A stretch of 64,000 nt of DNA. Source: Lichina pygmaea. Its lineage: Eukaryota > Ascomycota > Lichinomycetes > Lichinales > Lichinaceae. Both the position numbers and the translations under genes were made by a program. Positions 1-13,715 of the stretch are shown piece after piece (the first letter of the stretch is position 1; every line of letters starts with the position of its first letter). The stretch lies in assembly GCA_963422465.1 (NCBI GenBank), contig OY730171.1:2480001-2544000 (forward strand). The letters are read 5' to 3'. The notes beneath the pieces are model-generated. The model did no database searches. It was not told the origin of the DNA and worked only from the letters and a program-made list of their open reading frames with translations.

Positions 1-241
1 GCGATAGCGGAAGAGCTACTTGTCTCCTGAGCTTTCTCAACGTGACCTTGTCCTCGACGGGATCGAGAGTCTGCTTGAGGAACGAGAGGAGCACCGACAC
101 TATGATCGCCGTCTCCAAGGTCTCGCGGAAGAGCACAAAGAAGACTGTGGGCCACGATGTGAGCTGCCCGTTGACGATGCCCGTCAGGAAGAAGGCCGTC
201 CGGAGCTCCAACATACCTGGCACGTGAAAAACATTCACCAT
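1..241 (-). CDS. FTR1: High-affinity iron permease, 5' end only (runs off window)
   Basis: This is the start of the plasma-membrane iron permease that works with the FET3 ferroxidase encoded at 8868. Exon 1 (241-217) reads MVNVFHVP; a 72-nt GT-AG intron (216-145) follows; exon 2 (144 to beyond position 1) continues [11 protein letters not shown]. The first transmembrane helix carries the REXXE-type iron-binding motif, seen here as RETLE, followed by a helix rich in I, V and L ending near SFLKQ. Splicing restores the family-typical [13 protein letters not shown] junction, which supports both the intron and the start. The second REGLE motif and the remaining helices lie outside the window. The promoter has ATCTGATAA at 351-359 and 687-695, as expected for repression by a Urbs1/SreA-type GATA factor when iron is plentiful. 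The identification is firm; only completeness is unknown. Confidence 0.9.
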
Positions 242-7995: not shown

Positions 7996-8370
7996 TGTTG
8001 ACGTTGGCTCCCGTGGCTACCACCGGTAGAAGTACTGTATGTACGGAGTACCTCTGTACCTTCGTACCTTCGTACCTTCATTGCACCGCCACATCCTGTT
8101 CTAGCCACTTGATGACTAACACCGGCAAAACCTGCCGTAGTCTGCTGTCCGCGGACGATATCCGATCTGATCGAGCACCCTCACCAGCTGCCGGCAGGCC
8201 ATCCTGCATGGAAGCCTTTCTTTCGCCGCACGATGGGTACCGTCACTGTCAGCTTCCAAACAATAGCGGGGTAAGGGTGGCGGATCAGCAGCCTATCAGA
8301 TTTTCCCGACATCGGCGTCCACTCCCACCCGTCTCCTCGGACGCGGGATCACGCCGGCCTGCTGCAGATC

Positions 8371-8397: not shown

Positions 8398-8738
8398 CTA
8401 ACCCTCAACAGTCTGGGTTTAGACTGCTTTGCGCGAACCCCACGTTAGGCCTGCCGTACGGCAACTCGCGACTCCCGCCATACCTTCAAGAATCGAGCAA
8501 GAGGGCCCGGCCTTTTAGCGTCAGGCTCGGTCGATGCGCCGGACAGACCTCCACTTCCCGCCGGCCGAGATGACTCGACGTGGACGCCTCCGCGTCGAAG
8601 GAGGCGGTCGGAGGCAGCCGCCCTGGGCTGGTCCGGTCATCGGCTCACGAACGATGCCATCCGACCCTCGCGCGAACGTGCCCCCTAGCCCCGTTTTCTG
8701 GCTCTACCGTGGACGCATGCGCGATCGGAAGGCCGAGG

Positions 8739-8747
8739 ATCTGATAA
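8739..8747 (+). promoter_or_regulatory. Iron-responsive GATA element upstream of FET3
   Basis: Exact ATCTGATAA about 120 nt upstream of the FET3 start, almost the same spacing as the proximal FTR1 site (about 110 nt). This matched placement supports co-regulation by iron. Confidence 0.65.
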
Positions 8748-8867
8748 GCTCCTTCTCAACCTCTGGGTCGAGAAGTCTCCCTCTCGAAGTCAACATCTCA
8801 TGAGCCTGAGGAGCGAGCGCCAGTCAATCGCCCCTCACCCGAGTGCTTCACAGCCAGCACCGACAGC

Positions 8868-11064
8868 ATGCTATCGCGTCGACGGCCAGGAGGCGTCTGG
8901 GCCGGCGCCGTCGCGCTACTATCGTCAGCGGCCGTTGTCCAGGCAAAGACGGTCGTCTACGACTTCAACGTGACTTGGCTGACAGCCGATCCCACCGGGC
9001 GGTCCGAGAGACCCGTGATTGGCATCAATGGCCAGTGGCCCCTTCCGACCATCGAGTGCAGCGTCGGCGACGCACTGGTCGTCAATGTCCACAACCAACT
9101 GGGCAACCAGAGCACGAGCATACATTTCCATGGCATGTTTCAGAACGGGACCTCCCACATGGACGGAGCCGTTGGGGTGACGCAGTGTCCCATCCCACCA
9201 GGATCGTCGATGAAGTACAATTTCACGGTGAGGTTGAGAGCTGCTGCTCCAGGCCCCGAGGACGACAACGATGCTGCACAGACAAACCCCACCAGAGCAC
9301 TTGGAGCCTGTCGTCTGACGCGTCGATAGGCGAATCAACCCGGGACGTATTGGTATCATTCCCACGTTCGGGGCCAGTACTCGGACGGCCTCCGCGGCGC
9401 TTTCGTCGTCCACGATCCGGATTCTCCCTACAAGGACGACTACGACGCGGAGCTGGTTCTCACGGTGTCGGACTGGTACAACGAGCAGATGACGCCTCTG
9501 ATCGCAAGGTTCTTGCACGTCACCAATCCGACGGGCGCCGAGCCGGTGCCGGACGCCGCCCTCCTCAACGACACCCAGAACCTGAAAGTGGCGGTCGAGC
9601 CTGGAAAGACGTACCTGTTCCGGATCATCAACGTCGGCGCTCTTGCGTCTCAGTACGTGTGGTTCGAAGGCCACACGATGAAGGTCGTCGAGGTGGACGG
9701 CGTCTACACCGACGCCGCCGACGCCGACATGATCTACCTCACGCCAGCGCAAAGATACGGCGTGCTCGTGACCGCCAAGGACAGCGCCGACGCGAACTTT
9801 GCGTTCGTCGGGAGCATGGATCAGGTTCGCACGTCGCGTCTGCCTCGGAGCTCCGGTCTAACGCCGTCGTAGGACATGTTCGACCAAGTTCCGCCGGGCC
9901 TCGACCCCAACGTGACGGGCTGGCTGGCATACGACGAACAGAAGGAGTTTCCAACCGCGGCCTTGATCGACGAGTTTGCGCCGTTTGATGACTTTGCGCT
10001 GGTGCCGGTGGACAAGGAGGAGATCCACGAGCATGTCGACTTTTCGGTGACGCTGGACATGAAGATGGACAACCTCGGGGATGGGATAAACTAGTAGGTC
10101 GGAAGGCCCTGCTCCTGCCGCGCGGAAAATTGACCGTGGATCCAGCGCCTTCTTCAACGACATCACCTACCTGCGACCCAAGGTCCCGACGCTCTACTCG
10201 GCCCTCACGACCGGGTCCAGTGCGGCCGACCCGGCCATCTACGGCGTCAACACGCATCCGTACGTGCTGAAGAAGGGCGACGTCGTCGAGATCATCCTCA
10301 ACAACGACGACCCGGGAAAGCATCCGTTCCATCTCCACGGCCACGACTTCCAGACCGTCGTGCGCTCGGAGGAGGAGGTCGGGGCCTTTGACGCCGCCAA
10401 CATCTCGGCGCCGATGCCGCGAACGCCGATGCGTCGGGACACGCTGCTGGTGCGGCCCAACGGCCACTTTGCGATACGGTTCAGGGCCGACAATCCAGAT
10501 AAGCGACACCCGACCCTGCACCGTCGCAGATCTCGCTGACCGTCCCCCTTGGCTGCACGCGTCTGGCTGTTCCACTGCCACGTCGAGTGGCACATGGTGT
10601 CCGGTCTCGCCATGACGCTCATCGAGGCGCCCGAGGACATGCCACTGACGCACAACATCCCGGACGATCATCTGCGGCTGTGCGAACGGCAGGGGATCGC
10701 GACGGCCGGCAACGCCGTGGGCAACCAAGACGATCTCTTCGACCTGACGGGCGCCAACGTATCGCCGCCGCCTCTCCCTGCAGGGTCAGTTCGAACGGGG
10801 AGCAAGAGCGTCCTTCGGACACGACCGACTAACGGCGCCGTCGTCGTAGATTCACACCCCGCGGCATCGTCGCCCTTACCTTCAGCATCCTCAGCGCGCT
10901 CATCGGCGTCGTCGTCGTTTCCTGGTCAGTCTCGTCACGGTCCCACTTATCTCGGAAGGGAGAGCTGCAGCGCTGACACATGACGCTGCTGCTGCAGGTA
11001 TGGCATGGCCGAGATCAAGACAGCGGGCGGAGCTGGCACGCTCGGTTCAAAAGCTTCAAGCTGA
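8868..11064 (+). CDS. FET3: Multicopper ferroxidase of the FET3 type
   Basis: Oxidises Fe(II) to Fe(III) at the cell surface and hands it to FTR1. Seven exons fit: 8868-9227, 9330-9824, 9873-10093, 10146-10498, 10559-10784, 10850-10924 and 10998-11064, giving 598 residues in perfect phase. A signal peptide ends near AAVVQA. Copper ligands are visible in [27 protein letters not shown] and [12 protein letters not shown]; the type-1 axial position is Leu, as in FET3. Iron-oxidation-type residues are suggested by SDWYNEQ and MDQDMFDQVP. The last two exons encode one transmembrane helix ([21 protein letters not shown]) and a short cytosolic tail, as expected for FET3 rather than a secreted laccase. 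The fourth intron can be joined only as AT-AC (see separate entry); all others are GT-AG. Two iron-type GATA sites lie upstream. Confidence 0.92.
10499..10558 (+). other. Apparent AT-AC intron in FET3
   Basis: Conserved sequence runs to FRADNP before position 10498 and resumes as VWLFHCH after 10559. Removing exactly 10499-10558 (begins ATAAGC, ends CTGCAC) joins a split Gly codon and yields DNPGVWLFHCH, the family consensus. No GT-AG pair restores it. Length is 60 nt, normal for this locus, and a CTGAC branch-point candidate lies at 10536-10540. The donor resembles GTAAGC with G changed to A, not the U12 ATATCC form, so it would be a U2-type AT-AC intron. Confidence 0.65.
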
Positions 11065-13715
11065 TGTACTGGAAAACCTTCCTTCGGATGGCACAGCAGT
11101 AGCCGCAGAGATTCTTTTCACCGAATGCCGTCTTCCGCGAAAAGTTCTCCACTCCATATCCTCCACCGCACGTCCAGTCAACGCAACCGTATCAGCCAGT
11201 CCGTCGCCTCTCATGTGGACATCTCTCAGCGTCAACTCTCCGTCGTTGTTTGATCTTTCTCCTTCGGACAAGTACTGGCATCGCAGCTACGAACCCCCAG
11301 CGGTGCCGTCACGTACGGCAGCACTACTCTTACTCCTACGGCTTCTACCACTGCCCCTACTACCAGCACATCTCTCTCGTTGCTCCCTCTCTCTTGTAGT
11401 CTATGATTGACAAGTCGCCGTCGAGGTGACCACAGCACTGTAGTCTCATATCGCGCACGTGATCAGCGTATTTGACCAGCAACCCCTCCCCCTACTCCTC
11501 CCACTCCCCCAACCCCTTTTCCATGATGTCGTCTCGCCTCGACTCGTCAGGGGGGTAGATGATGCTGCTCTCTGTATTGCAGAGAGTATACGATCATCTT
11601 ACGGTAGCTCTAGCTATGGGGTAGGACTACGAAGGAGATCTTGGTTCGAGATGTACGGGGCGTTATTAGGTAGTTGGAGCGGCTGCAACGGTGGGGTCTC
11701 TACTAAATTACAGCTTGACTTAGTAAGCCAGCGTAGTCAGCAGGGCCCACTGTACCCTGTCGTATGGTATTGTATTGAAGTCCTACGTACGGAAGTACGT
11801 ACTGTACATACTCTTACCCCATCCTAAAGCTAGATTACGGAGTTACACTGGGAGAACTGTACCTCCGTACTTCCGTACTTGTAAAGTGGCAAGGAAACCT
11901 CTGCGTCATGTGACGCTAGGGCAAAACCCTCCTCTGCAGCATCCTCTGTTCTAAGTGCTGAAATCATGACTTGATAGGTACTGTGTCACCCCACCTAACT
12001 GACTGGCATCGACAGTGCTGGGGTTGTGTTGGGCAAGAAGGGGAAGAAGAGACTATGTAACGTACATGTGTACCGGCAGAGCTATCAACTGCCTCATGAG
12101 ATCAAATTCCAGTGGCTAAGCTATAGCGACTGATTGAATCAATGCTTAGTTGAGTCAAGGTGATCATCTGAGCAGGGGGTGGATATACTACTACTTTCTG
12201 GGGGAGCTGTCATATCCCCAGCGAGGTCCTTCTTTTGGCTTAGTCATGCCGTTCAGTACGAGGTACATACGTACGTATGTACATGGGTACGGAAGTACAG
12301 TACGTATTACCAGCATGCGGTCGAGATCCAACTCGAGCGCTTGGCCCTTGATCAAATTCAACATCAATGTGTTTTTGATCCGATGAGGCAACAGTCAATG
12401 CAGATGGCTCTGTTTCCTCGGCGGTCAATCTTAGCGGCGTCTCGCTTGATAAAAGCCTCGTAGCGCCTGTAGAGTGTAACTCCCAGCGCACGTCCGATGC
12501 GACATCGGTGTGCCACAGCGTCGTTCTCCGGTAAGAAATTGGAACTGCGTGGCACCATGGCTCCAAAAGGAGGGCACTGAAAGGTGGATCCAGACAAGCA
12601 ACCGGAAACAAAGCGTGTCATAGCAATCGCCACCCAGAGTGGCGACAGAAACGCAGAGGATCATGCTTCCATCTTCGTGGAAGCGCACAGAGTGCGGTGG
12701 GCCAAGGTGACTCTGTAGAGCTGCAGCGGTGAGTTGGTCTTTGGCTATTGGCGAAGGCGTGTTTGCTGGAAGCTCAGATCCCGATGATCGGAGCTGCAGC
12801 AGGCTTGAGGGCTGCCGCTGTGTCACCAACCCAGAAATCTCGTCGATCAGAGTCGACAAAAACGGAGCCCTACGGTGCCGTACAGACGTACAAAGTATTA
12901 CGAGTACCAACACGAAGAGGCTGCAGGATGTGCGCAGCAGCTCTCACGGTGGTCATGGCAGTGACAAGACCCAGTGGACACTTCGCCGAGGAGACGGTCT
13001 GTTCAAGCCAAGCTCGAGCGCCGGCTATGCAGCAGGTGCTGTGGTCGACTCGACTGTCAGCGGATTGCGGCTTTTGGCGCAGATAGGTACGGAGCTATCG
13101 TGACTGCGAAAGTTTGCACCAGCTGCAACTAGCGAAGGTAGCGTGCGTTCCGCAACAGCAACTTCGTTCAGAATCGCACATACTGTAAATATCTTCATCC
13201 ACCATCATCGTCATCGTCATCGGCGTCGCCGCCGTTCTTGGGTCGTGCTCGATCCTGTCGCCTTCTCCTCGGCTCGCTTGGCCACCCAGCTGATCCGTTC
13301 CTCCTCGACCTCTTCAGACCGCACGCCCTCGTCCGTCTTCGAGATCGGAGAAAAGTTTCCACCCTTCAGCCCACCACGGCCCGGCAGGCCACCGCCCCGC
13401 CGTCCCCCCAAGTCGTGCACGGGCGAGCCCGTCGGCATATCCTCAACGACCTCCCACCGCCATTGGTCTGAGTGCTCGGTCTTCGAAGACCGGCTCTCCC
13501 TCTCCGTTTTGTTCCCACAAATCCCCGAGCGGCCGTTCTCTCCGACTCAGCTGCCGCATAGCGTGTCCTTCGGCCCCCTTCCTCTCCCGGGGGAAGAATC
13601 GGGGCGACTCTGCCAGCTCAGCTTCGAGGCGGATCCGTTCCGGCCTCCGTAACGAGCGTCTGGGAGCTTCTTCGGACAACCTCTCTCTCGACGTCGACGG
13701 CCCCTCGGCCGGGTT
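11065..13715. other. Gene-poor interval between FET3 and ODC
   Basis: Nothing recognisable. 11780-11880 and 12260-12310 are dense in GTAC palindromes and contain three copies of GTACGGAAGTAC or its complement (11787, 11867, 12287). 12400-13100 has long open frames on both strands with no family I recognise; an old broken gene is possible. 13140-13715 is probably the promoter and long leader of ODC, rich in CTCC and CATCGT repeats; fungal ODC leaders often carry upstream reading frames, but I cannot confirm one. Confidence 0.4.

Follow-up and report, generated by a model that had tools for sequence, protein, structure and literature searches.

A predicted AT-AC intron of the major spliceosomal class in a FET3-type ferroxidase gene of Lichina pygmaea

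A FET3-type gene and its neighbours

The window analysed here, a stretch of 64,000 nucleotides from Lichina pygmaea, corresponds to C3:2480001-2544000, where C3 is a contig of 5.3 Mb in a genome of 32.5 Mb and 8 contigs. It contains a gene whose product is predicted to be a multicopper ferroxidase of the Fet3 type (Table 1). Joining the seven exons gives an intact product of 598 residues, and there are no frame errors elsewhere in the gene. In phmmer, the joined protein matches 1zpu, the Fet3 of Saccharomyces, with an E-value of 5.6e-168 (residues 30-552 aligned) and without a gap at the junction between exons 4 and 5. All three cupredoxin domains (Pfam PF07732, PF00394, and PF07731) are present in the joined protein, and Cu-oxidase_2 scores 157 bits in this form compared to 92 and 32 bits for the separate halves. 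The HxH and HCHxxxH motifs are copper ligands; the joined protein has both an HxH-type motif and the sequence HCHVEWH, aligned to those of Fet3. Near the C-terminus lies a hydrophobic stretch that, judged by eye, is a membrane anchor. A search of NCBIfam returned seven multicopper-oxidase and related families, every one below its curated cut-off, and no relative was found in the viral contigs scanned. The original prediction had described the gene outside the unusual fourth intron as a six-exon rest with GT-AG introns that keep phase. The other five introns are indeed GT-AG and in phase, but the gene has seven exons.

A genome-wide search for FTR1 iron permease genes gave a single one, which is covered by two separate matches at C3:2479353-2480145 and lies 8.7 kb from FET3. 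The two genes point away from each other, and the three predicted introns of FTR1 are all GT-AG. A second multicopper oxidase gene, L001, is located at C3:5036053-5039445 on the same contig. Short GTAC-rich, palindrome-like stretches (GTACGGAAGTAC and others) were noticed by eye on both sides of FET3, at 8030-8080 and 11770-12310.

Table 1 Features of the FET3 locus and related genes. Positions are those of the window unless marked C3.
Feature	Position	Strand	Basis or remark
FET3-type multicopper ferroxidase gene	8868-11064	+	phmmer, three Pfam Cu-oxidase domains, gene finder
FET3 exons (n = 7)	8868-9227, 9330-9824, 9873-10093, 10146-10498, 10559-10784, 10850-10924, 10998-11064	+	gene finder agrees
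Intron 1, GT-AG	9228-9329	+	sequence and gene finder
Intron 2, GT-AG	9825-9872	+	sequence and gene finder
Intron 3, GT-AG	10094-10145	+	sequence and gene finder
Predicted intron 4, AT-AC, 60 nt, phase 1	10499-10558	+	best Fet3 match among open excisions; gene finder
Intron 4 5' splice site ATAAGC, preceded by exon ...CAG	10499-10504	+	sequence
Branch-site candidate CTGAC, A at 10539	10536-10540	+	sequence
Intron 4 3' splice site CAC	10556-10558	+	first AC after the branch motif, no AG between
Intron 5, GT-AG	10785-10849	+	sequence and gene finder
Intron 6, GT-AG	10925-10997	+	sequence and gene finder
FTR1 iron permease (L009)	C3:2478853-2480214; window 1-214	-	gene-finder model, runs off the window start
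Second multicopper oxidase, laccase-like (L001)	C3:5036053-5039445		lacks an intron where FET3 has intron 4

Boundaries of intron 4

Intron 4 reads ATAAGC...CTGCAC, with the ATAAGC start and CAC end given in the original prediction. Its removal joins GAC AAT CCA G|GC GTC TGG, which encodes DNPGVW, and because its 60 nt are a multiple of three, the flanking exons lie in one frame. Within the retained intron there is an in-frame TGA at 10537-10539, and this same TGA sits in the CTGAC branch candidate. In the paralogue L001, the DNA reads DNPGIWIFHCH without interruption at the corresponding position.

To place the boundaries we scored excisions with a first base at 10460-10540, a last base at 10500-10599, and a length of at least 21 nt, applying no splice-site rule. 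An excision was counted as open if the first 70 codons then contained no stop, and the 3,643 open excisions were scored by alignment to the Fet3 segment alone. The excision 10499-10558 ranks first with a score of 207, compared to 200 for the next two, which upholds the original claim that the family sequence DNPGVWLFHCH is restored only by removing these bases. Among the best 12 of the 3,643 it also comes out on top against a laccase, with 138. Without any excision, and with the stop masked, the match to Fet3 scores 170. An intron with GT-AG or GC-AG ends at the same place was considered and rejected: there are nine such open excisions, and the best scores 100, since the copper-ligand motif is deleted. 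AC ends are found at 10540 and 10558 and AG ends at 10529 and 10587, and the interval from the in-frame TGA to the Val codon at 10561, which has to follow the junction, contains no AG. A normal Fet3 therefore cannot be read through a GT-AG or GC-AG intron. The protein match sets both ends of intron 4 independently of splice rules.

A purpose-written gene finder gives the same structure. Its codon statistics were learned on C3:2280001-2544000 (264 kb), whereas its splice profile was fixed and set from general knowledge of fungal introns, with a single equal penalty for any combination of first and last intron base other than G...G. It is blind to GC-AG introns, because T at +2 and A at the last-but-one position are required. 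At penalties of 4, 6, 8, and 10 bits it takes 10499-10558 and the same seven exons. With 10 bits it predicts 139 introns in 141 gene models over the 264 kb, consisting of 137 GT-AG introns, FET3 intron 4 as the sole AT-AC intron, and one TT-AA. With 8 bits there are 12 introns with odd ends, namely FET3 intron 4, another AT-AC on the minus strand, and ten others; by eye, several of these other calls look like transposon relics, and none is taken as real. With 4 bits, the 211 introns include 12 AT-AC, 14 AT-AT, and 12 TT-AA. AT-AC is thus no commoner than other odd pairs at this penalty, and nothing indicates that AT-AC introns are generally favoured in the region. A run allowing GT-AG only, in which the splice profile drifted toward odd donors, ended FET3 at the TGA, at 10539. 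As a separate observation, three of the odd introns called at 8 bits, one at C3:2365317-2365373 on the plus strand and two on the minus strand, share a 57-nt stretch, ATAGGGAAAAG...ACTTAT, which may belong to a repeated element derived from a transposon.

Splice signals and the spliceosome

Apart from base 1, the donor region of intron 4, ATAAGCGA, is GTAAG-like. With base +1 left out, the donor outscores 98% of a reference set of 119 predicted GT-AG introns, a figure that is relative to the fixed splice profile because the 119 introns are themselves predictions under it. The donor agrees with CAGGTAAGT at 7 of 9 positions, compared to a mean of 5.0 in the same 119 introns. The branch, CGCTGACC, scores equal to those of introns 1 and 6. 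Its CTGAC had originally been placed 20 nt from the intron end, and, counted back from the end, the branch A is indeed base 20; this distance is 12-22 nt for the other five FET3 introns. Pairing with U1, computed with the 5' end of the genome's own candidate U1 (ATACTTACCTT), amounts to -2.3 kcal/mol for the intron 4 donor, the weakest of the six in the gene (the others range from -3.6 to -8.8), and the A at +1 breaks the helix. In 527,400 positions on both strands of the 264 kb, ATAAG is combined with CTRAC and an AC end at a length of exactly 60 nt in two cases, one of them intron 4. The looser combination of ATnnG, CTRAC, and an AC end at 60 nt occurs 19 times in these positions.

U12-type introns have the donor ATATCCTT and, near the 3' end, the branch TCCTTAAC. 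The donor of intron 4 (ATAAGC, in ATAAGCGA) differs from the former, in line with the original statement that it is not U12-like, and the branch (CTGAC, in CGCTGACC) differs from the latter. Since neither resembles the U12 motifs, the major spliceosome is the likely agent of splicing. In the genome, U2 is matched at three places and U6 at one. U1 is matched once (L031, C1:3477748-3477893, E-value 1.6e-13), with 60.7 bits, under the Rfam cut-off of 69.5. U11, U12, U4atac, and U6atac have no match in the genome; the same families were silent in 14 control genomes, none of which carries such genes, so that this result does not by itself establish their absence. Scanned with Rfam at gathering scores, the region 8500-11500 gave no match. 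According to one survey, minor introns are wholly absent from Dikarya (PMC10639083), and a review describes ascomycetes without minor spliceosome components (PMC8199999). The host fungus probably has the major spliceosome alone. A U12-type intron removed by a minor spliceosome would account for the AT-AC ends, but given the donor, the branch, the unmatched minor snRNAs, and the survey of Dikarya, we regard this as scarcely credible.

Taken together with the protein match, these signals suggest that 10499-10558 is very probably a spliceosomal intron of the major (U2) class, in which A and C replace the terminal G and G. This was the reading originally proposed; its coordinates, donor, branch, and frame arguments hold, and it is the best one available, while remaining a prediction. 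Removal of the intron would proceed as follows. U1 and U6 would recognise the donor through positions +2 to +5 (TAAG) together with the exon CAG, U2 would pair with the CTGAC branch, and the first AC downstream of the branch would serve as the acceptor, with the terminal A/C pair filling the role of G/G in the second step. The intron may have originated from an ordinary GT-AG intron altered at both ends. If it were retained, the product would gain extra residues and stop at 10537, ahead of the HCHVEWH copper ligands and the membrane anchor. As first noted, the intron adjoins the copper-ligand motif: the first His of HCHVEWH stands five residues past the glycine at the junction. Nothing suggests that this position is relevant to splicing.

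Several other explanations have to be weighed. An ordinary GT-AG intron could have been misread in the assembly, or mutated in one strain, at both ends. Each end is only one base off the GT or AG rule, and AT-AC introns are rare in annotations: in a set of 2,302,340 annotated pairs, their mean share of the fungal splice-site pairs is 0.019% (PMC7072748). However, this explanation needs two separate changes 59 nt apart in a gene that otherwise has no frame error. The odd bases are, moreover, exactly the A/C pair, and AT-AC is reported as the most efficient pair after GT-AG in yeast (PMC6726248, citing Parker and Siliciano 1993). Shifting the excision by one base does not help, as the neighbouring excisions 10498-10557 and 10500-10559 also lack GT-AG ends and match the protein worse. 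We therefore consider a misread or mutated intron unlikely.

The in-frame TGA of the retained form and the weak computed U1 pairing would also fit a decaying gene, in which the ability to remove intron 4 has been lost and the protein ends at 10537. Against this, the other exons, the five GT-AG introns, the three copper domains, and the C-terminal hydrophobic segment are all intact. No spare FET3 was seen among the at least two genes given by the Cu-oxidase_2 search, FET3 itself and one laccase-like gene. The single FTR1 gene found, which lies nearby, looks intact as well, and the good condition of both partners speaks against decay, which we judge very improbable. Less probable again is read-through of the TGA in an mRNA that keeps the 60 bases, which would lengthen the protein by 20 residues. 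The length is divisible by three, both flanks lie in one frame, and the stop-masked unspliced reading matches Fet3 better than any GT-AG or GC-AG excision, but the joined form scores higher still. Neither Fet3 nor any of the four laccases aligned has anything corresponding to the inserted residues, which would fall between DNP and the Val beside the copper ligands, and the stretch bears intron signals. Removal of an AT-AC intron by the major spliceosome thus remains our preferred reading, as judged from the protein and the splice signals.

Relation to known AT-AC introns

Wu and Krainer (1997) reportedly described AT-AC introns of the U2 type, known as type II. FET3 intron 4 resembles these in its AT...AC ends, its donor, which is GTAAG-like past base 1, and its ordinary branch; it differs in being a short fungal intron in a ferroxidase gene, with splicing that is predicted. 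The Fet3 protein of 1zpu belongs to the same protein family as the product of this gene and serves as a protein yardstick, but it is uninformative on the intron. Some U2 introns use AT-AC (PMC6726248), and FET3 intron 4 shares its ends with examples from two other filamentous ascomycetes. In Trichoderma longibrachiatum, AT-AC is found at 69 of 14,305 junctions (PMC4324775). In Fusarium graminearum, where 842 genes were examined for faulty gene models or alternative splicing, introns other than GT-AG and GC-AG account for 0.31% of 2,604, AT-AC included; seven genes with non-canonical sites were checked by Sanger sequencing, the AT-AC one not necessarily among them (PMC3577648). The Fusarium and Trichoderma introns rest on RNA-seq, whereas FET3 intron 4 is predicted from sequence. 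A further likeness is to the AT-AC protointron of yeast SUT635 and to mutated yeast introns, where the major spliceosome joins AT-AC ends in a genome without a minor spliceosome (PMC6726248). The yeast cases involve a non-coding transcript or a mutated intron, whereas FET3 is a conserved coding gene that depends on the junction. Our search of the open-access literature found no paper on an AT-AC intron in FET3, and the literature search found none that describes AT-AC introns with ATAAG as U2-dependent. FET3 intron 4 is a further example of the AT-AC introns already known in filamentous fungi.

A more far-reaching idea is that the AT-AC ends make removal of intron 4 slow or conditional, so that FET3, and hence iron uptake, is tuned by splicing, with the intron kept for this purpose and conserved as AT-AC in relatives. 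If this were true, the retained form, which stops before the last copper ligands, would be degraded; we consider the idea very improbable. For annotation, gene finders limited to GT-AG and GC-AG introns would truncate FET3. A natural AT-AC intron in a gene whose protein fixes both of its ends would also provide a clean test of the joint reading of the first and last intron bases.
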